The position numbers and the translations under genes were made by a program. A stretch of DNA of 64,000 nt from Aplectana chamaeleonis (Eukaryota; Nematoda; Chromadorea; Rhabditida; Cosmocercidae), in assembly GCA_029168955.1 (NCBI GenBank), contig JAPDOI010001320.1, positions 1-64,000 of the forward strand, in the 5' to 3' direction. The notes under the pieces were generated by a model that was not told the origin of the DNA, ran no database searches, and saw nothing but the letters and a program-made list of their open reading frames with translations. This document shows positions 13,831 to 57,133 of this stretch, piece by piece (position 1 is the stretch's first letter; each line of letters begins with the position of its first letter).

Positions 13831-13879
13831 TCAATGTTCAGGACACCGTATGCAAGCCAGGCCTCCGAATCTACAAGAA

Positions 13880-14190: not shown

Positions 14191-14950
14191 GCGCTGGAAA
14201 TCAATTTCCATTTTTCAGGCTCAATTTCATGATTGAGCCCGGTAGACCACACTGGTAAACTTTGGCGAGTCAAAAACGTTGAACGATGAGGTTAATATCC
14301 GCCACCAATTCTCACCAGTCATCTAGCCCTTTTTCCTAGAATGTTGGTGTGACAGTAAGATAACAGGAAAAATTGGTTACGGCACGAACTCCACATGCAG
14401 AAAAACTCCGAAAATGATTTAGGCGCGAAATTCAAATTCGTATTTACAATGTGTTCCGATTGACTTTTCTTTACAAATGAAGGTTTTTCATGGGCCCCTT
14501 CAACATTTTCTTTCACTAGAGGGGCCAAGCTACGCAAAAACTCATAGACATGATGAAAAACTCTGATAAAAGAGGCCTGATACTGCGCTATCAATCATTG
14601 TTTTTATTAGAGCTCTACGGAAATACTTCGACTGGTAGCCTCACCAATGGGCCGTTCATTTCATTTCTGTCTTGAGTGGTGCGTGCCCCCCCCCCCGTCT
14701 AGAAGAGTGCCTAGAACCTGTACAATTGGGTCATTTTGAAACTCATTTCTTCATTTTTCGACTTTTAAATTCAAAAAGTATATGCCTTGCATCTATTTGT
14801 AGGAAGCCGCGTTGCAACAATTATCTTGCAGTCTCAGCAGCGGAGCGGTTGTTTCTTCATTTCTACCCCTATGTTTTCAAAAAAAAAACAACTTGACTTC
14901 TGGAGCTCGACGATATTGTAGAAGGAAACCCTTGTAAAAAGTTGTGAAAT

Positions 14951-16491
14951 TTCTGAAAGTTGGGCTCCGCAGAAAAGGTCAAGGATTTGGCATTGCTCCT
15001 AAATGTTGTGAAATTGTTTTATTGGATTTGGCTCTCAACTTGATTTTTCAAATGTAGTGAAATTGTCGAATTGATTTGGCTGTGATGATACTATATGCTG
15101 ATAACATAATCATTAAATGTAGTGAAATTGTTGCAAACGAATTTGGCAGGAGCTCTATCAATTATCACAGTCAAATCACGCGTCAGAAGGTCCTCTGGCG
15201 AGCGAATGAAGACAAAAAGAAAAAAATAATAATCCTCAGTCAACAATGCTGAACGAAACGTGGCCTTATGGGCTAGAATTACGGTTTCCGAATGCTATTC
15301 TGCCCTTTCAGTGTAGCTCCCACTAACAATAAGGTACCAGACCTTCCCTCACCGATGAGATAAAATCATGAAAACGAAATCTAACGCAATTTACTCGCTA
15401 CTGACTCTATGTCTTCGTGTCCTCAACGCTTTCACGGTTCGCATTGTATTTAAACCTTTTTTCGTGCTAGAGTTATTCTTGTTCCCATTTGATTCAATAT
15501 GCGCTCCAAGAAAAACTCTTTCTGACGCGTGATTTGACTGTGATAATTCATAGAGCTCCTGCCAAATTCGTTTGCAACAATTTCACTACATTTAATGATT
15601 ATGTTATCAGCATATAGTATCATCACAGCCAAATCAATTCGACAATTTCACTACATTTGAAAAATCAAGTTGAGAGCCAAATCCAATAAAACAATTTCAC
15701 AACATTTAGGAGCAATGCCAAATCCTTGACCTTTTCTGCGGAGCCCAACTTTCAGAAATTGTTTTATTGGATTTGGCTCTCAACTTGATTTTTCAAATGT
15801 AGTGAAATTGTCGAATTGATTTGGCTGTGATGATACTATATGCAGATAACATAATCATTAAATGTAGTGAAATTGTTGCAAACGGACTTGGCAGGAGCTC
15901 TATCAATTATCACAGTCAAATCATGCGTCAGAAGGTCCTCTGGCGAGCGAATGAAGACAAAAAGAAAAAAATAATAGTCCTCAGTCAACAATGCTGAACG
16001 AAACGTGGCCTTATGGGCTAGAATTAAGGTTTCCAAATGCTATTCTGCCTTTTCAGTGTGGCCTTTTCAGGTACCAGACCTTCCCTCACCGATGAGATAA
16101 AATTCATGAAAACGAAATCTAACGCAATTTACTCGCTACTGACTATGTCTTCGTGTCCTCAACGCTTTCACGGTTCGCATTGTATAGAAACGTTTTTGCT
16201 GCTAGGTTTATTCCTGTTCTCATTCGATTCAATATGCGCTCCAAGGAAAACCCCTTCTGACGCGTGATTTGACTGTGATAATTGATAGAGCTCCTGCCAA
16301 ATCCGTTTGCAACAATTTCACTACATTTAATGATTATGTTATCTGCATATAGTATCATCACAGCCAAATCAATTCGACAATTTCACTACATTTGAAAAAT
16401 CAAGTTGAGAGCCAAATCCAATAAAACAATTTCACAACATTTAGGAGCAATGCCAAATCCTTGACCTTTTCTGCGAAGCCCAACTTTCAGA
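14951..16491. repeat. Nested foldback at the end of the satellite B element, copy 1
   Basis: The sequence starting tttctgaaagttgggctccg (14951) runs through ttggatttggctctcaac and tgatgatactatatgc to the gcgtcagaagg block near 15190. It is repeated inverted at about 15530-15770, direct again from 15760, and inverted at about 16260-16491, with short inner segments between. Copy 2 keeps a single pair of arms of about 167 bp (44202-44368 and 44640-44804). Copy 1 thus looks like a tandem or nested duplication of one foldback unit. The inner segments show no protein similarity. Confidence 0.8.
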
Positions 16492-16709
16492 AATTCAGTA
16501 GTGCTTTCGAAACTTGCACCATTCTGCTGCTTTCGGAAGACATGCATCGGAGTGTCTAATGAGACTGCACGCTAGCGCCGGAGACGAACTGCTGAGTAAG
16601 AACTCAGTAAAATGAGGGTTTCTGAAACCTCGTCAGTAAACGTCTTTTAAAGCGAGTTGAACGTTCAGGTTAGCTTATAGCTTTACATCTCGTAATTTAC
16701 ATCGAAGTA

Positions 16710-18551: not shown

Positions 18552-18974
18552 GAACGCCGTAGAAAGTGTGCGGGACCCAAGTGGGAGTGCGCCAGACGCC
18601 GTAGAAAGTGTGCGGGATCCAAGTAGTAGTACGCCAGACGCCGTAGAAAGCGCGCGGAACCCAAATGTGTGTGCGCAGAACGCCGTATAAAGTGTGCGAG
18701 ACCCAAGTGGGAGTGCACCGGGCGCCGAATAAAATGTGCGGCACCCAAGTGGAAGTGCGCAGGACGCCTTAGAAACTCGACGTGGCTTCAGTGAGAGTGC
18801 GCAGGATGCCGTAGAAAGTGTGTGAGACCAAGTGGGTGTGCGCAGAACGCAGTAGAAAGTGTGAGCAAACCAAATGAGAGTGCGCCGGACGCCGTGGAAA
18901 GTGTGCGGGACCCAAGTAGAAGTGCGCCGGACGCCGTAGAAAGTGTGCGGGACCCAAGTAGGAGTGCGCGGGAC
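18552..18974. repeat. Diverged relative of satellite B, 42-bp units
   Basis: About ten units of 42 bp, gccgtagaaagtgtgcggga followed by cccaagtgggagtgcgccggac. Against the dimer gtcgtagaatgtgtgcaggacctcagtaggagtgtgcaggac of satellite B roughly five bases in six agree. None of the leader, microsatellite or foldback flanks of the satellite B element surrounds it. Units differ from each other more than those in the main arrays, so it looks older. Confidence 0.85.
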
Positions 18975-20303: not shown

Positions 20304-22200
20304 ATACATTGGATCCGAATCAAAAAAATTCGGATACTCGGATTTCGGATAACTCAAAAATCAAAGGTCGCGGATATCCGACTCAAACGGATAGATTCAA
20401 AATAGCAAGATCGGATAATCCGAGTCAATCGGATAGAGAGGCGAAACGGATAGTCGGATCTCGGATCAATCCGAAAATTACGTTTTTTCGGTGATTCGGA
20501 TTTTGGATCACTCGGATTTTGACCTTTTTTCGGTGAGTCGGAATCCGAATATCCGAGTCGGATATCCGGTCGGATACAAGGTAGTATAATTCAAAAAGTT
20601 TATCGAAAATTGATAGTCTGGTGAAAATCCTCAAAGAAAGAGATTTTTATACCTTTTTATGATAAACAAACTCATTGATAATCATCTTTATCGCGAAATC
20701 TTTGCAAACCAAACAGATGCGATCACCTTTCACAATCTCTTCAAAGTGAGAGTAATGTTAAAGCATTTGTCTAAAAGAGTATCGATCCTTCACATCGAAT
20801 TCGTAAATACCCGTGAGTTACTGTCTAATCCACTTAACAAAGGATTGCCCGTTCGATCAATACACATGGTTTTTGGTAGGCAATCGAACCCTCAATGCGC
20901 CATAAGGGGTATGGTATATTTCTGCGACACACTGTCGCGTCGCTCTGCACAGCGACAGCGAACGCCGGTCGCGGAGCTTCTACCCTTTTAACCTGTCACT
21001 ATCGCAGTGCGTTGCAAGCTCCGGCCGCGACAGGCTTCGGCCCATTCGCAGTATGTCGGCCCTCCGCGTCACGTCGCTGCGACAGACGCGCGATAATCGT
21101 GCCTACGACGACCAATGCCGTTGTTACGATGCAGGTCCCGCAGTGCTAGATTGCATGCCTGTCGGTCATGACAGCGGCAAACTATACCATAACCCTAAGA
21201 GCCTTTCAGAGTGGCGTCGCAGCAAAACTCGCTGTCGCGGTGACGGTGTGAGTGATGTGGGGGGGGGTGCTACGCAGCGCAAACTGTGCCGTGCGAGGGA
21301 GGCGACCGCGCTTTCAGAGTGCACGAGCTAGCAGCGACGGCAGCAACGTCGCGCGGTGGAAATGATTTGGACCATTTTTGTCTCTGCCGTCCCGCCTTGG
21401 TTTCTTTCTATTTGTTGATGTTACTTTGTCCATAAACTCTCTATAAAAATAATTATTTCCCCTATTTCACTGTTTTCTCCAATCGAACAAACGGACAAAA
21501 GTCGCACAGACAACTCAAACCAAGAGAATCAATGCTAATTATGCGCAAAATCTGCGCTGATGATGCGCAGAAAATGCGGCGTAAATTTTACGATGCGCGC
21601 CGATTGGATGTCTGCAGTGTACAGTCTATAAAAGGGCAAAATTCACTTGGTTCCTACGCGTGCTGGTGTGGATCGGAGGTTAAAGAAAGTGAGAGAGCGT
21701 AGGGCACACGGAGGCCGAGGCGTCTCGCGCGCCGCTCGCGCCTCGAATGATGTGAATTACGACGTTTTATAGAGGGTAACTACGCACCTGTATGGCTACT
21801 GTAGAATGGAATGTCGAGTTGTGACATAAGATACGCTTGTTTGAGTTACAGGACATGCCGAATCTACCAATATCCGACTCATTATCCGATCCGAATCATG
21901 ACATTTTTCGGATATTCGGTATCCGAATCATTATTCGACTCATGGCACATTTCGGTGATTCAGATTTTGAATCAAACGGATTTTGGCGTTTTTTCGGTGG
22001 ATCGGATTTTGGATCATTCGGATTTTGACTTTTTTCGGTGAATCGGATTCTGGATCATTCGGATTTTGACACTTTTTCGGTGATTCGGATTTTGGATCAT
22101 TCGGATTTTGACGTTTTTTCGGTGAATCGGAATTTGATTCATGAAAATCTCGGTTCATTCGGATGGATATCCGAAAATGAGTGAGTCGGATCCAATGTAT
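20304..22200. mobile_element. Mutator-like element nested in hAT element 1
   Basis: Termini ATACATTGGATCCGA / TCGGATCCAATGTAT with a perfect 10-bp duplication ACCTTGTAGT (20294-20303 and 22201-22210). Duplications of 9-11 bp fit MULEs. Subterminal tandem repeats of about 41 bp (tttttcggtgattcggattt then tggatcattcggattttgac) flank both ends, about four units at 21960-22130 and less at 20470-20560. No MULE transposase was found. An inner GC-rich region (20930-21330) has its own inverted aggggtatggtat / ataccataaccct ends and may be a further insertion. Confidence 0.8.
20659..20880 (+). pseudogene. Possible fragment of a copia-type RNase H C-terminus
   Basis: Translation contains ILHIEFVNTRELLSNPLNKG followed by LPVRSIHMVFG, resembling the end of Ty1/copia polyproteins (…adpLtKGLP… then a short tail). 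Upstream IDNHLYREIFANQ is less convincing. It lies inside the Mutator-like element and has no other retroelement part around it. Copia is uncommon in nematodes, so chance similarity is a real alternative. Confidence 0.25.
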
Positions 22201-26300: not shown

Positions 26301-29007
26301 TTCATCCGTGTTGGTTCTGAAGGTGACGAGGATTATCTCGAGTGAGCGCGAGTCAATGATGGATAGATTCTGGGATGAACCTTCTGTTGTTCAGATAATC
26401 TTCGTTTTTTGTTTTCGTTTACTCTAGTGTTCTTGTTTCTGTCCAAAAACTTACGGCTTTAGTTTCCTACCTCTAGCATTTTTGAAGGGTGTTTCACATT
26501 TGTGCCCGCGCACATGTTGAGTGTTTTTACGAACAAAAAGTTGCATTTCAAGAATGAAATACCTACGCATTCTTGTTGTACAATTTCGAAAAAAATGTCG
26601 ATCGAACAAACATCGAAGTTTTTTCGCTCGAAAGGTTTCCGAACAAACGAAAAAAAATCCGTTCATAAAAATTCGAACGAACGAATTTGGGAAGACTTTT
26701 AAATTCTGGAGGTCGATCGAACAAATTACGAAACAAATCGAAATTTCGATTTTTTTTTCGAAAGGTGTTCAAAATTTTGAAATTTTTCGAATTTCGTCCG
26801 AAGTTCAGGAATTTTTTTCGATACTGCTTCAAAATTTCGGACATTTTTTCGACTCAACGCTCTATTAAAACCCTTCAGTCAGGGAATGAATAATCCACAC
26901 TTGTTCGATTTCTACGCAAGTCGAGAGCTTGCAGTGTCTTTCTCCCTTACTTTAAACAGTTCGTAGTGATGTTTATCGGGCTTATATTGCAAAAGTCTCC
27001 TAATCAGCGCTATATTTTTCCATGACCGATGGCTCCGCAGCTTGCTCTGCTCGGACTCATTAGAGCAAAAAAAACTTTATATTCCCCGGTCCCAAGCACA
27101 ACTTATTTAAAGGCACTGTTCGCGATAAACTTCATCCTCGAATTTTACATGACAAACGCCTCTCGTGGCTCTCAGAAGTAGAACAGTGTAGAAAAAACGG
27201 GACGAAAAGATACTCAGGAGCCGCAAAACGGCTTAGAAAAGTGGGCAAACCCGCCGCTGTGGGCAAGTCCCGCCCCTTTCCATCCCTCGACGTGAACAAA
27301 GGAACACTCGAAATCGTAAATTGAGCGATGGTTTCCCATGAAAAGCCCCGTTCTTCCCTTCATTCTCAACTTCTCTCTTTACTCAGGTTAGCTCGCATAC
27401 ATTGGCTGCAAAAGACGGAAGTTACAAGCCTCGGGCAGCTCGTCCACCATTTTCCCTAGCTCAGTTTTTGAAGGACCATAACTCCATTCCCAGAAGGTGT
27501 TGTACGATTCCAGAAGCATCATTGGAATCAGAGTGGGACCGCTTTTAAATAGGCAAAGAAACAGAAAAGCGATTTTTATCGCGAACAGTGCCTTGAAGCA
27601 GGCGAGTTGTTCGCTCACGCCCACGACAACTCCCCCGAGCAATAACGAACCAGCGTAACCTAAGCTTCGAGAAGCGTTTACGAAATCGAACGAAGTTTCG
27701 AAAAATCGGATTTTCAACGAACGAAAAAAATTTCGAAAAATCTTTCGGAAATTTCTTTCGTGTACAACTATACTATGTATCTTTACTGGGACTATGACGA
27801 GGAGTGAATAAAGGCTTGGTCCTAAATTAATCACCTGCTCCACGCACACATTTGCGAAGTCGTCTCGCGATTCATGAGGATGCACATTTCAGAACCTAGG
27901 TATGGTTCACTCTTTGTCAAATTTCAAGTAAGCCTGCCTGAAAGAGTATGTCAACGAAAATTCAGAAAACGAATATTCGGCCGAACAAGTGAATAATCGA
28001 ATAATTCGAAAAAGTCAATTTTTCGAATAAATCGTTCTAACGAATATTCGCAAAAGTCAGGTTTTCGAATAATTCGTTTATTCGAATACTCGGAAATTTT
28101 TATTCAATTGATATGCTCAACTGCATAAGTGTCTGATCCTAGGAATGTTAATTTCTATCCGTGAAACGCTCAACTACCTTCGAGCTCATATTGATGAATA
28201 CCCCGTTGGGTATGCTGTTTACCGCTCCATCATGTGTAGTGCCATATGGGTATGCCTGTAGTATTGCTGTTCTTATTACGTCTGTTGAATTTTCTCAACT
28301 TATTGTTAGCTTTCTCGCTGTTATTCTAGATTGTTAGCTTCTTCGCCGTTACTCTAGTTAGCGTTGATAAACTCAGTATCATTCAAAGCTCTTGTTTTGG
28401 TAAAGTGCCTACCGTCAGTTTTACCACGGGACCTCTATTATGGGAAGAACTGAGGGGGCGAAAGTAGGGCGAGTCGGCACTCCATTCGCGTAGTCTCCAT
28501 AAATGCCCCACATTTATCTCTGAAATCGCCCCACTCTTCCAACAGCTAATGGGGGTTTTTTCACCAAAATGAGGCAAGACAAGGGCCGATCCAGCGGGAG
28601 ATGATTCGATGTAACTAGGCAACTCTGACTTTTCTTAGAGGCGACTCCCGAGCTAGTTTCAGAGAATAACCTCCATGAAATCAACTATTTGTACGTCGTG
28701 TCTTCTGCGCAATAATCTTTATGGAAAAGGCAGAACCTGTGACAGGGCAGCATCCTGAAGCTTGAACCTTCCGGATTCATTGTCAGTCCTACTATTCTCT
28801 AACATCTACTCGTTTCAGATTCTCATCGAGATTCACGGAATGCCAGCAGAAGCGTTGATGCTGCTTCGGGAGATTTCAAGTAAAGGATACTGGCTCTTCT
28901 CATACGAAATCAATGGCTCATGGCATAACTTATGCGAATATTCTTTCATACATGAAAGTGCATTCGATCAATACGGTGTCACTCCGATTGCAAAATTTCT
29001 TACATAA
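23337..29007 (+). CDS. FkbM-domain methyltransferase, C-terminal part (three exons)
   Basis: Exons 23337-23505, 24180-24232 and 28819-29007, with donors GAAG/GTGCGT and GCAG/GTAAAC and acceptors TTTTTTCAG and TCGTTTCAG. Phases agree (one base left after exon 1, none after exon 2) and give 136 residues ending in TAA. Motifs: KYTLEDLLAMEGITDFEILK, then IDIEGTEFEIMTPLLKKYQ (the acidic motif II of FkbM/Methyltransf_21), then ILIEIHG, GYWLFSYEIN and LCEYSFIHESAFDQYGVTPI. This is the usual C-terminus of the large nematode family of predicted SAM-dependent methyltransferases; substrate unknown. The start of exon 1 (after TTTCAG at 23331-23336) is my choice; the frame is open to 23241 and N-terminal exons, presumably with a membrane anchor, were not identified. 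The last intron is 4.6 kb and full of transposons, but nothing in the exons is broken. Confidence 0.8.
23621..23815. mobile_element. TTAA-type MITE fragment in FkbM intron 1
   Basis: Begins AGGCAGTGTTCACCGTGAAA after TTGA and continues with tttggcaaaaact, gctttgggtccct, ctgtg and a cacgtc block. The same order is seen from 50245 to about 50500. The far end is not preserved here. Confidence 0.5.
24554..25223. mobile_element. Inverted-repeat element in FkbM intron 2
   Basis: Arms of about 110 bp (24554-24662 and 25113-25223) share cagtttaccgcaatgtt, aaaggacatg, aactaaaactacg, tagctctttgc and cagcacagctgattttct in inverted order. Inside, aagggcttttct and agaaaagccct form a second inverted pair. 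It encloses the small Mutator-like MITE. No protein is encoded. Confidence 0.65.
24953..25106. mobile_element. Small Mutator-type MITE, 154 bp
   Basis: Termini GGGACAGGGGCTGTCTACAC and GTGTGTAGAGAGCCCCTGTCCC (as read on the plus strand, split here as GTGTGTAGAG + AGCCCCTGTCCC), with a perfect 9-bp duplication CAGAAAATC (24944-24952 and 25107-25115). The duplication length points to a MULE-mobilised MITE. Nested within the inverted-repeat element. Confidence 0.75.
25963..26345 (+). CDS. Possible small three-exon gene inside FkbM intron 2
   Basis: Candidate exons 25963-25988 (from ATGGCC), 26175-26217 and 26292-26345 with donors CAA/GTAAGC and ACC/GTGCGA and acceptors GTTTAG and CTTTCAG. Phases are consistent and predict 40 residues, including KGEVRQWDIINGRLT and ending KNKFIRVGSEGDEDYLE. 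The second intron is 74 bp, a normal nematode size. I recognise no family. It may be the end of a longer nested gene, an old exon pair of a retired gene, or chance. Confidence 0.3.
26566..27768. mobile_element. Probable DNA transposon with TCGAAA-rich ends
   Basis: The outer ends GTTGTACAATTTCGAAA and (inverted) GTTGTACACGAAAGAAATTT match, and both subterminal zones (26570-26870 and 27660-27760) are packed with ttcgaaaa/gaacga motifs. No target duplication could be read. It contains the TTAA-type MITE at 27111-27593. Structure resembles the other DNA elements here with low-complexity subterminal repeats. Confidence 0.4.
27111..27593. mobile_element. TTAA-type MITE, GGCACTGTTCGCG subfamily
   Basis: Inverted termini AGGCACTGTTCGCGATAAA, matched on the right by tttatcgcgaacagtgcct. 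TTAA precedes it (27107-27110); the right flank has changed to TGAA. 483 bp, non-coding, in the last FkbM intron. Confidence 0.75.
27945..28110. repeat. Low-complexity CGAATAATTCG/CGAATATTCG cluster
   Basis: Short palindromic motifs cgaatattcg, cgaataattcg and ttcgaataa recur about ten times in 165 bp. They look like subterminal repeats of another DNA element whose ends I cannot identify. Confidence 0.5.
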
Positions 29008-35396: not shown

Positions 35397-35517
35397 TAAG
35401 AAAGCGTTTGCATTAGCAATTCCCGAACTTATCTGAAATACATTCAGTATTTAGTTGGATAGATTGTGGCGCGATAAACATATTCGTTCTTCCAAAATCA
35501 AAAACAAACCACTTTAA

Positions 35518-36292
35518 AGGCACAGTACACCCAGAAAATAGTTTTTCAGTTTCCATGCTTATATTGGAGAAGGTCAGACGCTGATCACAGCGGTATCTTT
35601 GAAATCGTTCAAGACCCCCTACAAAAGGAGTAATGGCTCCTTAAAAAAGCCTGTTATTTGAGGGCGAAAAATTGGTGGACGAGTTGTCCTAGGCCTATAT
35701 TTCCTTTCATTCGCAATCGTTGCACGAGAGCGAGCCAGGATTATGAGAAGGGCCGGTAATGGACTCAAGAACGTAGACTAGGTTAAAATTCATCCAACCA
35801 TACAGCCGATATCAAGGTCGAGAATCAGGAAGGGGGTCGGGTCTTTGGTGGTGAGTGAAGAAGGTCGGGCCCGTGGTGGTCGCTTATATCTCGCTTATTT
35901 GGAGGAATTGAGATCTCGCACTTGGCAAGTGTTATACAGGAGGGGTCTACGAGCGGCAAAATAACGGCCGCAAACAAGCGTTTTGGTGCCGCAGACACGC
36001 CTGGTGCCCCAGATCCGCCCCTCGGAATGAGCAAATGAAAACTCAGATTACAGGAATGATGAAGTCAGGGAAGTGCTGATAAGTGATCTGATCGCTTCAT
36101 TGCACTGATAGGTATCATCCTTCTAGCGGTCAATTCCTCCACGCTCAAAAATCAACATAAACAAGAGAGGGCCTATTTTTGCTCAAAAACGCGTCTTTCG
36201 TGTCCTTTTTAAGAATGTCTTGCTATATAGGGCACCATACCTGCCGTAAGCCGTGGAAATATCGGAAGTAAAATTTATCGTGATCTTTGCCT
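35518..36292. mobile_element. TTAA-type MITE, uninterrupted reference copy
   Basis: Starts AGGCACAGTACACCCAGAAA, ends tttatcgtgatctttgcct, with TTAA on both sides (35514-35517, 36293-36296). The same element, inverted, is found at 39374-44998, where it is split by the satellite B element. Position 36048 here corresponds to that insertion site (minus strand: attcctgtaatctgagt). Confidence 0.8.
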
Positions 36293-36322
36293 TTAATGGA
36301 ACGAGAATCTTAGCAGTGAAAT

Positions 36323-37290
36323 TCAACTGGACAGGAAGGTGACATCCCACACAGCTCTAGATCTTAGGAGACACAGAAGCCCGAAGCACTTTTCGCGACG
36401 TTCCGATGACGTCATCAGAAGCCCGAAGTTCCTAGTTAGAACGATCCTAGTTAGAACGTAATCGAGCTGTAGTTCCAAAGTTGTCATCTTCCGCTTCCGT
36501 TGCTGCTCTGGAGACATGGATTGGTCCCTGCCACGTAGGCTAATGACGACAATGATTCCTCCTGAATGTTGATGCAACAATCAGACCACTGAGTTCACAC
36601 AACTCGACAAGGCGGTAGCCATTGTCCGATGTTTGCTCCACTGGGTAAAACCATTTACCGAGTACTTCGGACTCCTGATCGAACCCCATCTTTGCGTTTG
36701 CGTCGATTCCCACGACAACAATATGTTGACAAGGTATCCTGGCTAGCAAAGTATTGAGTTCCACGTAGAAGGCATCCTTGGAGTTGTCCTAGGCGGTTTC
36801 ATTGGGCGCATGGGCGCTCACTATCCACCGATTGAATCCTCTGTGATCCCGCAGTCGCAAAAATTCTTTCCTACACAACGTTGAGCCGAATTTCTCGATA
36901 ATACCATTGTAGTCCTTCCTCACAGCTATCGCACAGCCTCCCACTCTCCTATCATCCGCGCTACCGCAGTAGATGGCGTACTCTCCGACGTTGATGATGG
37001 GTCTATCTTTGGGGAGAGTTTCCTGCAAAGCAGCAAACGGTGCATGGAAATAGCTTATAAGATTGGACAGCGCAGATTGTTGGATATCACTCGACAACGA
37101 CCGGCAATCCAGGGCGGCAAAATTGTGGCTTCTGGCGAAAGACTCCATGATCTCCCTAGGTACGGAACTTAAGGTTTCATGGATCAGAGGCCTTAGTGTG
37201 CCGGACGGCAGCACCTTTATGCAATGTATGGGATACTTTTGCGATATAGTTGTGCACGTTATATCGCGCAAACGTTCCCTGTGTATACTC
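36323..37290 (-). pseudogene. RTE-type LINE endonuclease domain, broken
   Basis: Minus-strand translation gives the APE-type endonuclease of nematode RTE elements: AALQETLPKDRPIINVGEYA, YCGSADDRRVGGCAIAVRKD, WIVSAHAPNETA, then, after a frameshift near 36790, HIVVVGIDANAKMGFDQESE, SDNGYRLVELCELSGLIVAS and, after another break, QRKRKMTTLELQLDYVLTR. The catalytic-site stretches (LQET, DANAK) are intact but the frame is broken at least twice. Between DYVLTR and the expected SRAVWDV the sequence is interrupted by 1.3 units of satellite A. No RT domain follows. Confidence 0.8.
36374..36428. repeat. Orphan satellite A fragment inside the RTE endonuclease
   Basis: 55 bp (1.3 units) match satellite A units almost base for base: cagaagcccgaagcactttt, cgcgacgttcc, gatgacgtcatc, agaagcccgaag. 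It is followed by a 15-bp direct duplication (tcctagttagaacga twice, 36430-36458). On the minus strand the reading frame passes through it. It is 32.6 kb away from the array. Confidence 0.9.
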
Positions 37291-37409
37291 GAATGTTTCC
37301 TCGGTCTAATGGAAGCATGAAAATCAAGGAGCAGGTACCAGCAAACTTGTATACACATCCCTAACATCATAGCAAAAGCGTGTACCAGAAGCCGGACGAC
37401 CCTCATCGA

Positions 37410-38323
37410 GCTTAAAGAGTTGGGAAGGTATCAAAGTTCTAAGAAGCAAAATCAATTTATTCCCATTATTTGAGAGGTAAAGTATACAGTTGGACTAGGA
37501 CGCTGCGTTGCGCAAAATTAAAAAAAAAAAACTTTTTCCAATTTTAGGTGATATAGGGGGTAATTGGTGTCACTGAATCCACCCCCCCACTTTTACTATC
37601 GCTGGATACAGAACACAGAAACACGCCTCAAGGTCTGCGAATTCGAAAGTAAACTCAGTGATGTCGATGACATTTTACAAATCTAGGTTCAGATTCGGTT
37701 TCTGAAACCCTGATAAAGTAGTGTGTTTTGACTATTTTGTCAGTGAAACACGCTCATTAGAACATGTTTTTCAAAAAGTTTTCTGGTTTTCTCTGCCGCA
37801 GAATGCAACGGGCCAGCTGTTCGCATGTCTTTAGGTCTTTAGCTGTGAGAGCATTTAATAAATCGACATTGTTTTTTGGATCGACAAGATGGAGCTCCGT
37901 AAATGAGAAGGAACCGGAAGTTTTGTGACATACGAACTCTGATCATCTATCGCTACTATTTTCTGAGAAGAACTGAAATAGAATTTGCCACATCTCCGCC
38001 ATCTGAACAAGATCAAGATGTTGTATGTTGGCGAATCGGAAATTCGCGCCGTCCGTGAACAGATAACATCTAGTTCTTGGTCAGATGACATTGGTGTTGT
38101 GAATTGTGGCCTTATTCGGTTCAACATTATGTTCAACAGGTGAAATTTATTAGCTTCACTATTATCTAAGGTTCTTCATCGGAATTTGTTTCACAAAAAT
38201 AAACTATTTCTCATCGCCCTGCTTTGCAGCGCTACGATCTCACTACAAAATAAAAAAATGATCGCACCTTTAATTTTCCTATTTGTGAAGTCAGTGTTTC
38301 AAAGAGTTTTTCACAGCGACAGC
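37410..38323. other. No gene recognised
   Basis: Contains A-runs and a C-run (37588-37596). The minus-strand open frame 37855-38136 has no recognisable similarity. Confidence 0.5.
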
Positions 38324-38443: not shown

Positions 38444-38832
38444 GTACGAAATTTTTCACCTTTGTTCAAGGAAGTCAGTGTGATACCGATACCCGAAGTG
38501 TCGACATAGCTAAAAAATACATGAGAAGGTATTTTTCTAAAGATTGAATTAGCATGCAAAACAACGCAGGTTCCCGATTCAAAACCTTTGATTAAGATCG
38601 AGTTCGCGTGCAAACTATGATTATTCGCAGATAAGAAAAAAACATTTATGATATTTCTGAAAACTTCTTACATAGAGTTTCTACAGATAAAAGTTTTTAT
38701 TGATATAAGCGCTGACATAGATCGTCGGTTATAAGGAATCGATTCGCGTTATCAGGCTGGAAAAGGGATCGTCTGTCATGCCTAAAAATTCACTTTCCTG
38801 GGTCGGACGCCCCAACCTGTCGGGTTGGGGAA

Positions 38833-39016
38833 GGGGCAGGGCATTCGGTGCCATCGAAGATCCTCGTAGATCACAAAATCAGTTGTGCCCTGCGGTTTCT
38901 TTCGCTTCCTCAGTCGCCCCAGCTAGGATGTTGGGGCAGCTGGGGAAGCGGAAGACCCTGCAGGGCCCGATTTTGTGATCTACAGGGAGCTTTGAGTTCA
39001 ACGACTGCCCTGCCCC
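38833..39016. repeat. Near-perfect palindrome, about 90-bp arms
   Basis: ggggcagggcattcgg…tagatcacaaaatc…tgccctgcggtttctttcgctt is answered by aagcggaagaccctgcaggg…gattttgtgatcta…gactgccctgcccc around a short centre at about 38930. No coding capacity. As RNA it would fold into one long hairpin. Probably a young foldback MITE. Confidence 0.7.
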
Positions 39017-40134
39017 TGTCGAAATCCGGCATGTTGGTGCATCCGGCCCGTGTAACATAGCTTCGTTGGGTGGAGCCAGGCACTCTACCAACCATCACGT
39101 CTGTGCAGGTGAATGAGGGAACCTTCGCCATTGGAAAACTGGTAACGATCGGGAAAACGCCTGAAAAAACTGAAAGTGACCCGACATTCATGTACGTCAT
39201 TTTCAATTCTGGATGGGTGTCATTGCCGGTTTTTCTTCCATAACTTTTTTGCGCTTGGAAATTGACTTTTAGTGAAGATTGTTTTGGGAATCCCAGTAGA
39301 ATTCTGTATAGAATAGTTTTTGTCAAATTCAAAAGATACGTCCTCGCTCTTTCAGCCTGTTTCGGTTTATTAAAGGCAGTGTTCACGATAAATTTCACTT
39401 CCGATATCTCCACGGTTAACCGAAGGTCTGGTGCCCTATATAGCAAGGCATGCTTAAAAAGGACGCGAAAGACGCGTTTTTGAGCCAAGATAAGTCCTCC
39501 CTTGTTTACGTTGATTTTTGAGCGTGGAAGAATTAACCGCTAGAAGAATGATACCTATCAGTGCAATGAAGCGATCAGCTCACTTATCAGCACTTCCTTG
39601 ACTTGATCATTCCTGTAATTGTGGTGAGCGCGAAGCGCTCACCAGGATTTGGCTTTGATCTCTTCCCGCGCGGATGCCCTACAATGAGATCACCTATTCA
39701 TACCGTCAACAGAGGTATGAGCTGTACACTATTCGACGCGCTGCAAGAAATTACATATGTGTGCAACTTTTCATCCCAATTGGTCCCCGCTTTCTGAAGT
39801 TATGACCTCTCAAAGTACGCAAAAACGTTCTCCACCACCGCCTCTGCCTCCGCTCCGCCTCCGCCTCCGCCTCCGCCTCCGCCTCCGCCTCCGCCACCGC
39901 CTCCGCCTCCACCTCCGTCCGTCGAAAACCATTTTTGGAAGGCGTGGACCAAATCGCTCGAAAATTTGTGACTAGATGTAATAGACCACGGGAATGACGA
40001 AAATAATTGTCAGAACTCACCATAATGACTTCTGGGCTCTAACGGGCGTTTGAAACTCGAAACCGGCCTCTCAAGATTAGTTTATAAAAATGACGGGTTT
40101 TTCGTTATCAGTCATTGTTTTCTTAGAGACTCCA

Positions 40135-40142
40135 TATAAATA
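40135..40142 (+). promoter_or_regulatory. TATA box, copy 2
   Basis: TATAAATA in the same context as 8051-8058 (tagagactcca upstream, ccttgctctctagggtggtg downstream). The following ATG (accATGCGCACC) is at 40222. Conservation between copies may simply reflect recent duplication. Confidence 0.4.
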
Positions 40143-40295
40143 CCTTGCTCTCTAGGGTGGTGTACTCTAAACGTCCGGCTTGGAACAGGACGTTGTTTTT
40201 GAGCGTGGCGCGTGTTTGTACCATGCGCACCAAAGATAAGAAGTCGTCGCAGGGTGTGCTGAAGTGTCGGTTGACTATGCGAGACCGCAGTAGGA

Positions 40296-43078
40296 GTATG
40301 CAGGACGTCGTGGAACTACAGCAACCCCTCAGTAGGGTGTGCAGGACGCCAGAATGTGTGCAGGACCTCAGTAGGAGTGCAGGACCTTATTAGGAGTGTG
40401 CAGGACATCATGGGACTCTGTGCAGGACCTCAGTAGGGGGTGCAGGACGTCGTAGAATGTGTGCAGGACCTCAGTAGGAGTGTGCAGGACCTTAGTAGGA
40501 GTGCAGGGACATCATGGGACTCCAGCAGGACCCCAGTAGTGTGCAGGACCTCAGTAGGAGTGTGCAGGACATTTTGGGACCTGTGCAGGACCCCCAGTAA
40601 GGGTGTGCAGGACCTCATTAGGAGTGTGCAGGACATTTTGGGACCTGTGCAGGACCCCAGCAAGGGTGTGCAGGACGTCGTAGAATGTGTGCAGGACCTC
40701 AGTGGGAGTGTGCAGGACCTTAGTAGGAGTGTGAGGACATCATGGGACCTGTGCAGGACCCCAGTAGGGGTGTGCAGGACCTCAGTAGGAGTGTGCATGA
40801 CATTATGGGACCTGTACAGACCTCAGTAGGAGTGCAGGATATCATGGAACGTGTGCAGACCCCAGTAGGGGTGTGCAGGACGTCGTAGAATGTGTGCAGG
40901 ACCTCAGTAGGAGTGTGCAGGACCTTAGTAGGAGTGTGCAGGCTATCATGGGACCTGTGCAGGACCCCAGTAGAGTGTGCAGGACATCATGGAACTCTGT
41001 GTAGACCCCAGTAGGGGTGTGCAGGACATCGTAGAATGTGTGCAGAACATCAGTAGGAGTGTGCAGGACATCATGGGACTCTGTGCAGGACCCCAGTAGG
41101 GGTGTGCAGGACGTCGTAGAATGTGCAGGACCTTAGTAGGAGGTGCAGGACATCATGAAACATGTGCAAGACCCCTGTAAGGATGAGCAGGACTTCATGG
41201 AATGGGTGGAGGACATCAGTAGGAGTGGGCAGGACACTATGAAGCGTGTGCAGGACCCCAGTAGGGTTGGAGCAGGACGTCATGGAATGTGTGTAGGACC
41301 TTAGTAAAATTACACAGGACATCATAGAACGTGTGCAGGACCCCAATAGGGTGTGCAGGACATCATGGAATGTGTGTGCAGGACCTTAGTAGGAGTGCAG
41401 GACATCATGAAACGTGTGCAAGACCCTGTAAGGATGATCAGAACTGTGGAATGTGGGCAGGACATCAGTAGGAGTGTGCAGGACATCATGAAGGTGTGCA
41501 GACCCCAATAGGGTGTGCAGGACATCATGGAATGTGTGCAGGACCTTAGTAGGAGTGTGCAGGACATCATGAAACGTGTGCAAGACCCCTGTAAGGATGA
41601 TCAGAACTTCGTGGAATGTGTGCAGGACATCAGTAGGAGTGTGCAGGACATCATGAACGTGTGCAAGACCCCTGTAAGGATGAGCAGGACTTCATGGAAT
41701 GTGTGCTGGATCTCAGTAGGGGTGTGCAGGACGCCGTAGAATGTGTGCAGGACCTCAGTAGGAGTGTGCAGGACCTTAGTAGGAGTGTGCAGGACATCAT
41801 GGGACCTGTGCAGGACTCCAGTAGGGGTGTGCAGGACGTCGTAGAATGTGTGCAGGACCTCAGTAGGAGGTGCAGGACCTTAGTAGGAGTGTGCAGGACA
41901 TCATGGGACCTGTGCAGGACCCCAGTAGGGGTGTGCAGGACCTCAGTAGGAGTGTGCAGGACATTTTGGGACCTGTGCAGGACCCCAGTAAGGGTGTGCA
42001 GGACGTCGTAGAATGTGTGCAGGACCTCAGTGGGAGTGTGCAGGACCTTAGTAGGAGTGTGCAGGACATCATGGGACCTGTGCAGGACCCTAGTAGGGGT
42101 GTGCAGGACCTCAGTAGGAGTGTGCATGACATTATGGGACCCTGTCCAGGACCCGAGTAGGAGTGCCCAGGATATCATGGACCGTGTGCAGGACCCCAGT
42201 AGGGGTGTGCAGGACGTCGTAGAATGTGTGCAGGACCTCAGTAGGAGTGTGCAGGACCTCAATAGGAGTGTGCAGGAAATCATGGGACCTGTGCAGGACC
42301 CTCAGTAGGAGTGTGCAGGACATCATGGAACCTGTGTAGGACCCCAGTAGGGGTGTGCAGGACATCGTAGAATGTGTGCAGAACATCAGTAGGAGTGTGC
42401 AGGACATCATGGGACCTGTGCAGGACCCCAGTAGGGGTGTGCAGGACGTCGTAGAATGTGTGCAGGACCTTAGTAGGAGTGTGCAGGGACATCATGAAAC
42501 ATGTGCAAGACCCTGTAAGGATGAGCAGGACTTCATGGAATGTGTGCAGGACATCAGTAGGAGTGTGCAGGGACATCATGAAGCGTGTGCAGGACCCCAG
42601 TAGGGTTGAGCAGGACGTCATGGAATGTGTAGGACCTTAGTAAAATTACACAGGACATCATGGAACGTGTGCAGGACCCCAATAGGGGTGTGCAGGACAT
42701 CATGGAATGTGTGCAGGACCTTAGTAGGAGTGTGCAGGACATCATGAAACGTGTGCAAGACCCTGTAAGGATGATCAGAACTTCGTGGAATATGTGCAGG
42801 ACATCAGTAGGAGTGTGCAGGACATCATGAAGCGTGTGCAGGACCCCAATAGGGGTGTGCAGGACATCATGGAATGTGTGCAGGACCTTAGTAGGAGTGT
42901 GCTGACATCATGAAACGTGTGCAAGACCCTGTAAGGATGATCAGAACTTCGTGGAATGTGTGCAGGACATCAGTAGGAGTGTGCAGGACATCATGAAACG
43001 TGTGCAAGACCCCTGTAAGGATGAGCAGGACTTCATGGAATGTGTGCTGGATCTCAGTAGGGTGTGCAGGACCTCAGT
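40296..43078. repeat. Satellite B array, copy 2
   Basis: About 130 units of 21 bp with the same classes and order as copy 1, including the ttagtaaaattacac variant and the same terminal units (gtgctggatctcagtagg then cctcagttcaatgttcagg). Single-base deletions or insertions occur every 40-80 bp throughout, so all reading frames are short. Confidence 0.95.
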
Positions 43079-45002
43079 TCAATGTTCAGGACACCGTATG
43101 CAAGCCAGGCCTCCGAATCTACAAGAACGATAGTTAAGTCCGCCAGAACAGGGCTACCGTAATCTCACCTCGAGTTGGCTCTAAAATTTTCTAAGTTCTG
43201 ACTCCGATTTCGCTTTATCTTCCTACAGGTGGTGATGTTTCTGCTTTTTAGTCCAGGCAGATCCTCAACTGTTGACCCCTAGAGAAGGACGGTGTGTGAA
43301 TGAAGACACACCGCTCTTTCACTTCTTTTATACTTTATCATTGATCAATTGGGTATCATCAAATTTGTTTACGAGAGCCGAATAACATCATTCCTGAGAT
43401 TACGGTAGTCCTCTTCTGGCGCACTTAACTATCGTTCGCGCTGGAAATCAATTTCATTTTTCAGGCTCAATTTCATGATTGGAGCCCGGTAGACCACACT
43501 GGTAAAACTTTGGCGAGTCAAAACGTTGGACGATGAGGTTAATATCCGCCGCCAATTCTCACCAGTCATCTAGCCCTTTTTCCTAGAATGTTGGTGCGAC
43601 AGTAAGATAACAGGAAAAATTGGTTACGGCACGAACTCCACATGCAGAAAAACTCCGAAAATGATTTTGGCGCGAAATTCAAATTCGTATTTACAATGTG
43701 TTCCGATTGACTTTTCTTTACAAATGAAGGTTTTTCATGGGCACCTTCAACATTTTCTTTCGCTAGAGGGGCCAAGCTACGCAAAAAGTCATAGAAATGA
43801 TGGAAAACTCTGATAAAAGAGGCCTGATACTGCGCTATCAATCATTGTTTTTATTAGAGCTCTACGGAAATACTTCGACTGGTAGCCTCACCAATGGGCC
43901 GTTCATTTCATTTCTGTCTTGAGTGGTGCGTGCCCCCCCCCCCCCCGTCTAGAAGAGTGCCTAGAACCTGTACAATTGGGTCATTTTGAAACTCATTTCT
44001 TCATTTTTCGACTTTTAAATTCAAAAAGTATATGCCTTGCATCTATTTGTAGGAAGCCGCGTTGCAACAATTATCTTGCAGTCTTAGCAGCGGAGCGGTT
44101 GTTTCTTCATTTCTACCACTATGTTTTCGAAAAAAAAACAACTTGACTTCTGGAGCTCGACGATATTGTAGAAGGGAAACCCTTGTAAAAAGTTGTGAAA
44201 TTTCTGAAAGTTGGGCTCCGCAGAAAAAGGTCAAGGATTTGGCATTGCTCCTAAATGTTGTGAAATTGTTTTATTGGATTTGGCTCTCAACTTGATTTTT
44301 CAAATGTAGTGAAATTGTCGAATTGATTTGGCTGTGATGATACTATATGCAGATAACATAATCATTTTCAGGTACCAGACCTTCCCTCACCGATGAGATA
44401 AAAATCATGAAAACGAAATCTAACGCAATTTACTCGCTACTGACTCTATGTCTTCGTGTCCTCAACGCTTTCACGGTTCGCATTGTATAGAAACGTTTTT
44501 GCTGCTAGGTTTATTCCTGTTCTCATTCGATTCAATATGCGCTCCAAGGAAAACCCCTTCTGACGCGTGATTTGACTGTGATAATTGATAGAGCTCCTGC
44601 GAAATCCGTTTGCAACAATTTCACTAGATTTAATGATTATGTTATCTGCATATAGTATCATCACAGCCAAATCAATTCGACAATTTCACTACATTTGAAA
44701 AATCAAGTTGAGAGCCAAATCCAATAAAACAATTTCACAACATTTAGGAGCAATGCCAAATCCTTGACCTTTTCTGCGGAGCCCAACTTTCAGAAATCTG
44801 AGTCTTCATTTGTTCATTCCGATGGGCGGATCTGGGGCACCAGGCGTGACTGGGGCACCAAAACGCTTGTTTGCAGCCGTTATTTTGCCGCTCCTGGCTC
44901 TTTTTCTACCGTTATTTTGATACTGGGAGCCTAGGATCCTTCTCGCCTATCATGTTACTGTGGAAAGTCAACGAGGATGATCATCGTGAACACTGCCTTT
45001 AA

Positions 45003-45487
45003 AGGCAGCAGACACGCTCGAAAATGATATCAATTCCATGGATTAAATTGAAGGTCTGAAGCTGTTAGTATTCAGAAATAACAAAAAAGACGAAAACAAA
45101 TCGACGGGAATGAAGAAATAACGGCACGTTCTATATTGGCCCAGAAATGGACGAGTTGTACGGCACTGGCCGAAATAGCGGAGTTAGCAAAAAATTTGTT
45201 GGGATAACGACGCTAATGTACTCGTACGGCCCTTTCTGGAACGCTTACGCCGTTAGAAGCCTAAAAAGTAATCTAAAGTGGCCGCAATCGAGCAGTGAAT
45301 ACCTGTATGCAGGGGCGGAGCCCGTATCGATGGGCGGAGCAAGGATGATTTCGTGACTGACTACGGCTCAAATACGGCCATTTGGACTCGTTTTTAACGC
45401 TTGCAACTTCGTGAGGGCTCTTCTAGGGCCTGCACGATCCCGCTAATGTAGTTATCTCAACAAATTTTTCGAGCGTGTGTGCTGCCT
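45003..45487. mobile_element. TTAA-type MITE, GGCAGCAGACACG subfamily
   Basis: Termini AGGCAGCAGACACGCTCGAA and ttcgagcgtgtgtgctgcct, TTAA on both sides (44999-45002, 45488-45491). 485 bp. The internal open frame 45147-45356 is not credible as a gene. It abuts the preceding MITE, sharing one TTAA. Confidence 0.8.
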
Positions 45488-45488
45488 T

Positions 45489-46290
45489 TAAGTGCATTTT
45501 TGTGCCTGAAGTTATCGGTTTTTCGTGCATAACTTAAGAGATGGACGTTCGGTAAAGGTTGTTTTTTGAAATCTCCATAGAATTCTGCATCGACTAGTGT
45601 CTCCGGTTTGGGATAAAATTTTCTCGATCCTTCCGCCCAATTCATTTTATGAAAAACACTGGTTTTTCGCCTAAACTCTTTAACCACTAGATATGGGGTT
45701 CTGGCCAAGGCTGTTCTTGAAATGTAAGTAAAATTCTGCGTCGAATGATGTATCGGATTTCTAAGTTTGCCAGCTCATAATCCAGGCAGATCGGTGGAGC
45801 CGAGCTCCATAGTAATCTCCACAGGGTGCTCTTGCCTCTACGGAGTAAATAGGAGACGTAGAGTCTCACTAGAGCCAACAATGGAGTTCGGCTCCACCGA
45901 CCAGGGCTTATGGGGCAAGCGAAGTTAGGAATCCGAATAGCATTTTACGAAGAATTTTACGTAGATTTCAAAAACTACCTTTACCAATACCCTAGCTCCA
46001 ACGGGTAAAGAGTTATAGGCGAAAAACCGGTGTTTCATAAAAAGGATTAGGCTGAAGAATCGAGAAAATATTAAGGAATTTGGGAATTTCGAGAACACTC
46101 TTCATCAGAGGTTCATCTTTTAGCGTAGAAAAGTTAAGAACAAAAAACCGATAACTTCAGGCACAAAAAAAAACCGAAATCGGCGTGAAGATTGAGATCG
46201 TATTTTTTGAACTTGAGAACGTTACTCAATGCAGAATTTCATGAAGATTCCAAAAACAACCTTTACCAAGGGGTTATCTTTGAAGGGAAA
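45489..46290. mobile_element. Large foldback element with a nested palindrome
   Basis: tgcctgaagttatcggtttttcg near 45500 is answered by aaccgataacttcaggca near 46155; further inward aaacactggtttttcgcc and gaaaaaccggtgtttca also pair. At the centre, 45789-45903 is a separate small palindrome (cggtggagccgagctccat / atggagttcggctccaccg). No protein similarity. Confidence 0.6.
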
Positions 46291-47149: not shown

Positions 47150-49530
47150 TATCACCTGTCCTCCCGATCGACAGTATCGAGCGGGCGCCAGTGACATCTT
47201 TATTCGTCCCTGTCGCGCACCATGGCTGACCCGGAAATCCTACTCGCGCTAGGAACACAAAGAATCTCGCTCCTTTCATCAAGGCTCTTGGCGAAGAAGT
47301 CTGACCATCGTGTTGGAGGACGGCCATTAGTGCGCGTGAGGTCCCGCGGTACGCAATCTGTTACAGCTCTTGTCCAACGGTTATCCTCAAAATGTATGGC
47401 GTGTCCGGCCCACCTGATTCTCGACGACTTAGCATATTTGACCGCGTCCCTGATTTTTGACCGCCTGCGTAGCTCGAAACTCCTAACTCCTACTCTCACT
47501 TGCGTGAAACGTGACACTCTGAGCATCGTCCTCTCGATCGCGTGCTTGGTGACGCTGACCCCAATTCCATCCTGCTTACGTAATGCCTAGGTTTTCGGAG
47601 CAGGGATGTGCGGCGATTGCAGTTTGCCGGTTGCCGTTTGCCGGCCGTTTTTGGACAATTTTCGTCGATTGTCGTTTGCCGTTTTTTCTCTCACTTTTCG
47701 ACAAAATTCGGCAAAATGCGACTAACAGATAATAAGCGCCGCGATATGGACGCAAAGCGCATAGTAAGCTAGCCGCGCTGTAAAAACAAATGATGATTGA
47801 ACTCTCGCGTCTTTCAAATAGAACTTTTGTGTGTTTTGAGTAGAACCTTCTGAAAAACAGTTTGCTGTTCGGGTGTCATTGTATCCAGCTCCCACTATAC
47901 CGCAACTCTCACTCGAAGGATTTTATATTTCTGAAGCCTTTCTCGCTTCTATGAGTTCGGCCGGATTATGCAGCGCAGTGGTCAGCCATGGCAGAATACA
48001 TTTTCAGAGAGTCGGGGGGTCCGATTCGGCCACGATAGGCTTTCTAATCGGGTACCTAGTCGAGTTGAAAGGAATTTTCGCAGCAGCACGTGCTGCTCCG
48101 AGGAGCACGTGGCCTGTTCGATAGCACTACGTGGTTTCTGAAAAAGAGCGGGATTGGTCTAACGGTATAACTTCGACATCAAACTTGGTCCTGGGGTTTC
48201 AAGATTTTTTGAAAAGTCTTCATTCAGGAGAATCAAAGTTATCCTGCTCGTAGGCTAATCTTCAGTGGCGAGTCTATTATAGCTGAAGTTATCGCTCCGG
48301 CCCTCTCATAAAGGTTGACACCAGACATCCTCGAAAAAATACTATTCTAGCACCACAATATTCTTATCACCGATTTTCATTGGAATACTCATTCCGGCGC
48401 TGTTTTTTCATATCAGGCATTGTACTGAGAAGTTCAGCTTCTCGTGGTGTTATTGAAAAAACAAGTTCCTAATCTTGCGATTGTGATACGAACAGTGCAT
48501 GAAGAAATAACACTCTTTTCTACAGTTATTTTTCGAATATTCGTGTCCTTTTCTGTACGAGGTTTTTTATTTTGCCGTTTGTCGATTGCCGTTTGCCGGC
48601 CGTTTTTTGGGCGGTTTTTGTCGATTGTCGTTTGCCGATTTTTTAAAATCGTTTGCCGCACATCCCTGTTTCGGAGCATACGTTAAAGCTGGAAGAACTG
48701 TGAAATCAATCAGGTAGACACGGATCCGGGTGTTCTTCAATTTCATCAAGACTTCCTCGACGGTTTCAGAAGCTCTCCAAGCTGCTCGTTTTCTCCTACT
48801 CAACTTCGGTGCTGGATCGTTCTTTATGTTGACCTCGCAAAACAGATACCCGTAGCTTGAGCATTCAGAGATGTTCGTTCCGTTGAGCATGATTGGGGCA
48901 TCAGGAACGTATCCGTTTTTCATTAGAATATTTTCGTCAAATTCAGCTCGAGACCAAACTTCCACACGCGTTGTCGAAGTCGGTCAGCATTCGTTTGGCT
49001 TGCCTGAAGGATGGTGTTATGAGAACAATGTAATCAGCAAAGCGAAGACGACTTAGCTGCCGACCGTCGACTTTCACTCCCATATCTTGCCATTCGAACT
49101 CATGCATAACCTTCTCAAGAGAGGTATTGAAGAGTTTCGGTGAAATGGTATCGCTTTGACAACCCCCTCTTGACATCGACGATGATCTTCAATGAGCTTC
49201 GTATCGTGTGAATGTGATCGACCGTGCTTTACCTTTTCAAAACTTTGCTTGTTCGCATGGCTGTCCTTCTTCTAGCGTTCTGTCAATCCTGTTAAGAATA
49301 TGAACAACAAATGATCGGGTTTAGTTCTATTAGGACCGGGTGCAGTCCGACTTTTCACCGACATGATGACTTGACGGATCTCGGAAGGGAGAAAGGATGG
49401 AGCAACGTAGTCGTCAGCTGGTATGGAGGGACATGGACATGGCTATCGAAGAGATCGGAGTAGAAGTTGTGAAAATGCCGATAGATCTCCCTCCGTCTGG
49501 GATTTATGAAATGACCAAATCCAACCGTGC
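47150..49530 (-). pseudogene. RTE-type LINE, reverse transcriptase and C-terminus, broken
   Basis: Minus-strand pieces in order: YSDLFDSHVHVPPYQL and MSVKSRTAPGPN (near 49450-49330), then GGCQSDTISPKLFNTSLEKV, KVDGRQLSRLRFADYIVLI, LNGTNISECSSYGYLF, LPALTYAPK, and after the hAT insertion VTKHAIERTMLRVSR, SKIRDAVKYAKSSRIRWAGH, GRPPTRWSDFFAKSLDER and RDRDE. The RT active-site motif reads FADY instead of FADD, a TAG replaces the Trp codon after the insertion, and the RT palm between SRTAPGP and QSDTISP is mostly deleted. It is inactive. Confidence 0.8.
47601..48668. mobile_element. hAT element 2, inserted in the RTE LINE
   Basis: Termini CAGGGATGTGCGGCGATTG / cgtttgccgcacatccctg with a perfect 8-bp duplication TTTCGGAG (47593-47600, 48669-48676). 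Subterminal tandem motifs tttgccg(g/a)ttg and tcgattgtcg flank both ends (47625-47710, 48575-48655). No transposase in 1,068 bp. The interrupted LINE frame resumes on the other side. Confidence 0.85.
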
Positions 49531-55892: not shown

Positions 55893-56148
55893 TACAGTGC
55901 GTTTCAAAAGTGAAGAAGCACCCTCCAATATGTCGTATGTGATCTTAATGTGATTAGTTGCAGAAGATGTCATTACCACTAAACTCGTCGTGCCCGAAAA
56001 CACTAGTTTGCAATATTATAGAGCCATAAGAGAAAAAATAGTTTTTTTTTCTCCAAACTGCAAAGTACTGCGTTTTAAAAGTATAGACGCACTATCAACA
56101 GTGCAGAAAACGGTCAAGCTCCTCGTTTCAAAGGCTCAATAGATAGGC

Positions 56149-57133
56149 GTGACTGTTTGTAACTTATATTACCTCTCGGAGAGTGAGCAAGCTCAAATAC
56201 GAGTCCTGAATATCGCAGAAGTGAGCAACCGTAAGATCGCCAAGATACTCGTGCGTTCATCGAGAGTCGTCGACAGGTATCTGCGCATCCTAGGGAAAAA
56301 AGCAAAGCCCGGAAGGCCAAAGAAGCTGTCTGCCCAAGATGTTCGCCGTGTTGGTCGGCTTGTTTTCAACTCCAATCTTCGACCACTAAAGTTCGATCTA
56401 AGGTGTCGACTTCAGCCTCATAAACGACTGTCTGGAGGGTCATTTGACAAAACTAGAAACATCGTATATCGTTGTCTCCGACCCGCCCACTCCCCACTGG
56501 CACTCACAAGGCAGCACCGCTACAGTTTGCTAAGAGGAAAATGGCGACGGACTGGTCCAAAACGAGTATAAGTTTTTTCAGGCCGCACTTAAGCAATTTC
56601 TGTAAAATTTCGTGTTTAGGTGATATTTTCCGACGAGAAGAAGTTCAACTTAGATGGTCCCGATAGATATGCCTATTACTGGAGGGACCTTCGGAAGGAA
56701 CCCATGTTCTTTAGCAAGCGGTACTTCGGAGGTGGTACTCTCCTGGTTTGGGGTGCTTTCTGCAGTGACAGCGTTCTGGAGACTGCACTCATTTCCACTC
56801 ATGTGTACCAGCTCATGTTCAGATGCCACCTCTTGCCTTTCCTCACACAGCAGTATAAAGAGAAACTTATTTTCTAACAAGACAACGCTTCTGTCCACGT
56901 GAGTCGGTCGACGAAGGCGTGGTCGGAGAAGAGTATGGTAAAGCGAATGGACTGGCTTGCATGTTCTCTCGATCTTAATCCCATATAGAATATCTGCGGT
57001 AGGCTATTACGTGAAATTTATGGTCAAGCCCGAACGCACGCGAAGGCTGAAGACCTCAAGAGGCTGGTGAATTCGATGCCGAATCGCGTTTATGAAGTGA
57101 TGTCTAAGCATGGAGGACCGATCTGTTGCTGAA
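56149..57133 (+). pseudogene. Tc1/Tc3-type transposase with inactivating stops
   Basis: N-terminal helix-turn-helix (SESEQAQIRVLNIAEVSNRK … RVVDRYL) and GRPKK hook, a gap with a probable small intron ending at TTTAG (56619), then VIFSDEKKFNLDGPDRYAYY (first catalytic D), GGGTLLVWGAF, QDNASVHVSRSTKAW (second D), LDLNPI*NI, and SMPNRVYEV near the end. TAA at 56875-56877 replaces the usual Gln codon before QDN, and TAG at 56986-56988 sits exactly at the catalytic third acidic residue of DLNPIE. It cannot make an active enzyme. Confidence 0.85.

Follow-up and report, generated by a model that had tools for sequence, protein, structure and literature searches.

Within a 64,000-nucleotide stretch of the nematode Aplectana chamaeleonis (assembly GCA_029168955.1, contig JAPDOI010001320.1, positions 1 to 64,000 of the forward strand; hereafter the window), a 5,178-bp element carrying a satellite-like tandem array interrupts a miniature inverted-repeat transposable element (MITE) of a family termed MITE-1 here. 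This segment is probably a non-autonomous rolling-circle-like element of the Helitron2/Helentron (HINE) type, which inserts beside AAT and has entered one particular TAAT several separate times in different MITE-1 copies, as well as sites elsewhere. Its borders are exact and AAT is present in the empty sites. A preliminary description of this DNA, made from the letters alone, had recognized the split MITE and proposed that hairpin, array and foldback moved as one piece; the repeated hits at one MITE base and the second type of element found at that base go beyond it.

The host MITE-1 copy, previously placed at 39374–44998, is real and spans 39370–45003, flanked by TTAA, with the left arm at 39370–39619 and the right arm at 44798–45003. 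Direct reading gives the left arm as ATTCCTGTAAT, followed by the insert (39620–44797, plus strand, drawn hairpin first; either end could be 5′) and then by CTGAGT, so that the MITE is interrupted at TAAT|CTGAG. The target TAAT lies at the hairpin border (39616–39619, plus strand) and AAT recurs at the opposite border (44795–44797). From left to right, the insert comprises a terminal hairpin with a 9–10 bp stem and a GAA loop, 2–3 bp inside the border (39622–39644, plus strand), the 10-bp sequence AGGATTTGGC (39644–39653, plus strand, 24 bp inside the hairpin border), a (CTCCGC)n microsatellite (39830–39917, plus strand), a tandem array of ∼2.75 kb with a unit of 21/42 bp (40327–43078, plus strand), ∼1.1 kb of further sequence and then a foldback (44199–44797, plus strand) with 168-bp arms at 44199–44366 and 44632–44797, whose outer tip is the border. 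An inverted copy of AGGATTTGGC is located at 44755–44764 on the minus strand, 33 bp inside the foldback border. The ends of the element read TGTGG-hairpin-ATTTGGC and CTTTCAGAAAT, and the tips TGTGGTGAGC and TTTCTGAAAG are not mutual inverted repeats, hence there is no terminal inverted repeat (TIR). The earlier reading of the ends as free of simple terminal repeats stands with respect to TIRs and is qualified by the 10-bp subterminal inverted repeat, and the insert length of 5,185 bp given there is to be replaced by 5,178 bp. The foldback was also considered as a separate transposon, a reading rejected on account of the rest of the element adjoining it in all ten fetched foldback loci. A search of Rfam gave no match.

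A second copy of the element lies outside MITE-1 at 7452–16494 (plus strand, 9,043 bp). It shares the tips and the order of parts with 39620–44797 and has AAT at both borders, as does the MITE-borne copy, but its array (8256–13830) is longer and it contains two foldback units instead of one; the collinearity and common borders noticed previously therefore hold, with the end moved from 16491 to 16494. The two foldback units (15010–16494, ∼740 bp each, 94.7% alike) stand in tandem at the end of this copy and may have been left by replication that ran through the element end. The window also contains an uninterrupted MITE at 35517–36297 (minus strand, formerly 35518–36292), which reads ATTCCTGTAATCTGAGT and is continuous through the insertion site at 36047–36049. 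Its other arm is similar to the window MITE-1 over ∼99 bp only. It had been presented as the empty site 3 kb away; it is indeed uninterrupted, yet it is a paralogous copy rather than the pre-insertion allele of the locus.

Further copies were sought in the genome (1.04 Gb, 2,087 contigs) with a query containing the left MITE/insert junction. Among the 40 scored places, 26 including the window reach 50 bp or more into the insert (type A), five reach only ∼40 bp into it (type B) and nine end at the junction and are uninterrupted. Sequences were fetched for 20 of the 25 type-A places besides the window, all five type-B places and five of the nine plain ones, leaving out five type-A and four plain places. 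In the window and at 13 of the 20 fetched type-A places, the insert lies between a left and a right MITE arm at the identical base, with small changes at some junctions (one A less in L009, one T more in L018, one substitution each in L012 and L023), while the fetched stretch of the other seven (L014, L017, L020, L022, L024, L026, and L028) does not include a right arm. Conversely, the left arm is continuous with the right arm in the five plain copies (L034–L038, 455–457 bp). The host fits a TTAA-type MITE, being short, with inverted ends, outer TTAA and varied flanks in the five plain copies and the composites, although some composites have one base altered in the outer TTAA. Of the refuting observations named in the preliminary description, differing borders are not seen, as the same borders recur among the genome copies, and a segmental duplication or an assembly join is excluded, since the outer flanks of the MITE-plus-insert composites also vary among the fetched places. 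The first-look totals of at least 1085 foldback ends and at least 1305 MITE matches are lower bounds, from which no hot spot is inferred.

Type-B inserts have only the ∼43-bp hairpin end in common with type A. In L030, the one that was read through, the interior differs and includes a 42-bp array akin to the one at 18554–18974 of the window (plus strand), where the preceding sequence, judged by eye, is like the type-B interior. Type-B loci are found at the MITE-1 insertion base (five places, L029–L033) and at another AAT of MITE-1 (three places, L149–L151).

Paralogous empty sites were identified in four repeat families, each with a single AAT at the junction and with AAT at both borders when filled; on the minus strand, this reads as ATT at both borders and one ATT in each empty site. 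The families are MITE-1 (GTAAT|CTGAG), a second MITE with ends like those of MITE-1 (AAAAAT|CG; filled in L107/L039, empty in L026 and at window position 27571 on the minus strand), a third repeat (CAGAAT|GAA; filled in L098/L047, empty in L021) and the repeat flanking L042, seen on the foldback side only (CAAT|CGTTTTATC; empty in L026). The window copy of the second MITE family, whose copy elsewhere (L039/L107) carries the element, occupies 27288–27571 on the minus strand. Hairpin-side flanks chosen without requiring AAT likewise contain it in five of five cases (the 7452 copy, L098, L105, L106, and L107). AAT is thus present in every target seen, which a 3-bp duplication and a fixed element end fit equally; insertion next to AAT forms part of the explanation preferred here and is probable to the same degree. 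A search with the foldback end yielded 21 elements with a readable outer flank, one of which (L010) lies within MITE-1. Among the remaining elements, AAT is followed by T in 16, by C in three and by G in one. As T is the usual next base and MITE-1 has C, the MITE-1 site is not the commonest form of the target.

The host MITEs are older than the inserts they carry. Divergence, pooled over non-independent pairs within the insert groups A1, A2, and A3, amounts to 2.0, 4.5, and 2.4% for the inserts and to 8.5, 9.9, and 10.0% for the MITE arms; group A2 here includes L023, which falls outside A2 in one of two insert trees, and L014, which that tree does not contain. In nine hand-picked pairs, the difference between arms and insert gives Fisher p values from 9e-4 to 1e-14, and five A2 inserts show no difference across 206 bp beside the hairpin while their MITE left arms differ at 16–37 of 219–247 positions. 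Furthermore, the filled MITEs have more than one origin. In a left-arm tree of 21 type-A, five type-B and six empty rows, the three kinds are intermixed, and forcing the 26 filled MITEs into one clade is rejected by the approximately unbiased (AU) test (p-AU 0.0146), as is a clade of the A2 hosts (p-AU 0.0055). Ten inserts sampled via the foldback end, nine with a readable flank and none of these nine in MITE-1, nest among the MITE-borne inserts. Due to the younger age of the inserts and the rejected single origin, the site must have been hit repeatedly and the pattern is not simply one composite spreading; separate MITE copies were hit separately, next to possible gene conversion of old inserts. 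Together with exact junctions at many places and empty sites in four families, the younger age of the inserts also bears out the proposal that hairpin, array and foldback moved as one unit. In this process, a Rep/helicase supplied in trans would recognize the hairpin and the subterminal repeats, AAT may serve as a cutting and joining motif common to the element end and the target, and the array would be copied along with the whole unit.

Three other explanations have been weighed against repeated rolling-circle-like insertion. A single insertion into one MITE, followed by spread of the MITE with its insert as a TTAA-type DNA transposon, would agree with the TTAA-like outer ends and differing flanks of the composites and with MITE arms that alone yield no strong tree. 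Under such joint spread, arms and inserts should be equally diverged, and the explanation has been dropped because divergence of the arms exceeds that of the inserts two- to fourfold; as filled MITEs do not form one clade and types A and B use the same base in spite of sharing only ∼43 bp, a single founding insertion is very improbable. An old family of composites, with younger inserts later replacing the original ones via gene conversion or recombination, is unlikely as a general account and conceivable for some copies. It would account for the common base, the young inserts and the swapping of interiors between types A and B within their common ends, yet the filled MITEs are not set apart from the empty ones as a clade (p-AU 0.0146) and inserts with the same borders at many other sites indicate that insertion itself is active. 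Slightly less probable still is a cut-and-paste (DDE) transposon that duplicates AAT as a 3-bp target, as suggested by AAT at both borders and once in the empty site: the tips TGTGGTGAGC and TTTCTGAAAG lack the inverted-repeat relationship of TIRs, and AAT in every site seen suggests recognition over a free 3-bp stagger.

Repeated insertion of a rolling-circle-like element is therefore preferred, and several observations count against it. The MITE-arm trees are star-like with weak support, a clade of A1 hosts is rejected only weakly (p-AU 0.041), and clades of A3 hosts (p-AU 0.26) and type-B hosts (p-AU 0.244) are not rejected; gene conversion between inserts is possible. The subterminal repeat, 10 bp long and lying 24 bp from one border and 33 bp from the other, also departs from the 12–15 bp repeats reported for mite HINEs at the published distances, with 11 identical bp having been used to define families, according to the accessible parts of two papers (PMC4067079; PMC7492417). 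Finally, PF14214 gave 42 rows in the genome, with ten places located within open frames that exceed 1,000 codons, and a partial look at the upstream sides of five PF14214 places (2.6 kb each, with 1.0–1.3 kb more for two) revealed no autonomous element with these ends. Pfam STPRs (PF21107) is matched in L080 and L081 by open frames that lie upstream of Rep domains of the Helitron type.

Whether the TAAT of MITE-1 is favored over other AATs was addressed with joined queries that served as controls at two of its other AATs, about a dozen further ones being outside the comparison. TAAT occurs once on the plus strand in four of the five empty MITEs and twice in L036, with one extra on the minus strand in L038. 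For the AAT ending at MITE position 164, no type-A and three type-B insertions (junctions confirmed by reading) were found among 40, and for that ending at position 198 no type-A insertion among 40, as opposed to 26 of 40 at TAAT with a query that was longer and had no positive control of the same design beside it. Moreover, in an occupancy sample of 37 plain control rows, picked without the site in the query, none of the 35 readable copies is filled (14 full-length MITEs and 21 of the other 23, which are continuous through the site; two are unreadable), and the 26 of 40 thus reflects a query that held the junction. The overall rarity of filled MITE-1 copies and the usual T, not C, after AAT also weaken the case for a site preference that the comparison suggests. 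Preference of type A for this TAAT over other AATs of MITE-1 is likely but unproven. A broader proposal is more doubtful: a real site preference would make the TAAT a landing pad, entered independently by several insert subfamilies and by two types of element whose interiors are unrelated, and the MITEs may afterwards carry the satellite further. If true, the preference for one base would make the element unusually selective in its target among rolling-circle elements. A literature search with poor coverage of subscription journals, and hence weak as evidence of absence, found no report of repeated insertion by a rolling-circle element at one and the same base in a MITE family. The insertion site was not seen in a constant loop of the MITE fold, as predicted structures vary among copies and the site motif was located in three of five.

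By spreading a satellite-like array through the genome, the element shows how satellite DNA can be scattered. Base-exact, replicated insertion sites make scattering by such elements testable via counting and dating, with the MITE family serving as both clock and target library, where host age compared with insert age separates fresh insertion from co-transposition.

Seven arrays in the window have a 42-bp period (81–3732, 8256–13830, 18554–18974, 20452–20542, 21950–22136, 27996–28096, and 40356–43076). At least two of them have unrelated-looking units, and the common period of 42 (2 × 21) bp is striking and unexplained. Long open frames spanning arrays (8594–11740, minus strand, 1,048 codons; 2377–3444, plus strand, 355 codons) are probably mechanical because 42 is a multiple of three. 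By eye and without computation, long imperfect inverted repeats appear to flank MITE-1 (38790–39030 and 45790–45910), and a short fragment of the 81–3732 satellite unit lies just past the uninterrupted MITE (36370–36440). Frames at 36789–37430 (minus strand), 47200–47586 (minus strand) and 56143–56571 (plus strand) look like fragments of a non-LTR (long terminal repeat) retrotransposon and a Tc1-like transposase, in a style suggestive of a strongylid nematode.

Canonical Helitrons lack TIRs, carry a hairpin near one end and have 5′ TC and 3′ CTRR tips. The present element is similar in the absence of TIRs and in the hairpin close to one end, but it has no CTRR tip: the ends read TGTGG... and ...CAGAAAT, and the minus strand could begin with TC and ends in CACCACA-ATT. 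The Helitron/Helentron-like label of the preliminary description, which rested on the hairpin and the lack of TIRs, gains structural support from the subterminal inverted repeat, the GAA loop and the microsatellite, and the Rep/helicase-encoding relative for which a search was suggested there did not appear in the upstream look described above. The element appears to work like a Helitron2-type non-autonomous element; as that partial look revealed no autonomous partner sharing its ends, membership is not proven.

In the accessible parts of the work on HINEs and the DINE-1-like elements (PMC4067079; PMC7492417), a palindrome lies about 8–35 bp from the terminus, borders have at least two T at each end, the target is T-rich and not duplicated, and some copies contain a microsatellite and/or central tandem repeats. 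Satellite arrays carried by HINEs have been published for the oyster Cg_HINE (PMC7492417), as have the central repeats of DINE-1 for Drosophila. The element resembles these in lacking TIRs and in its terminal palindrome (10-bp stem, GAA loop, 2–3 bp from the border), microsatellite and element-dispersed central array, and the minus-strand ATT at both borders agrees with at least two T on one strand. Its subterminal inverted repeats may correspond to theirs in spite of their length and distances, and a target duplication is not clear, the borders fitting a fixed end or a 3-bp duplication alike. It differs in the microsatellite on the palindrome side, in an AAT triplet instead of a plain T-rich target and in a foldback with 168-bp arms at one tip. 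The Helitron2-type FoHeli1 and FoHeli2 of Fusarium, as far as the accessible parts of their description go (PMC5148889), have hairpins at both ends (1 and 2) and Rep/helicase coding and are mentioned with no satellite array; their TNAT target also leaves out part of the GAAT, CAAT and AAAT targets seen here. Nevertheless, they share with the nematode element a GAA-loop terminal hairpin, an inverted repeat ∼20–50 bp inside the other end and a short defined target, TNAT in FoHelis and AAT here (PMC5148889).

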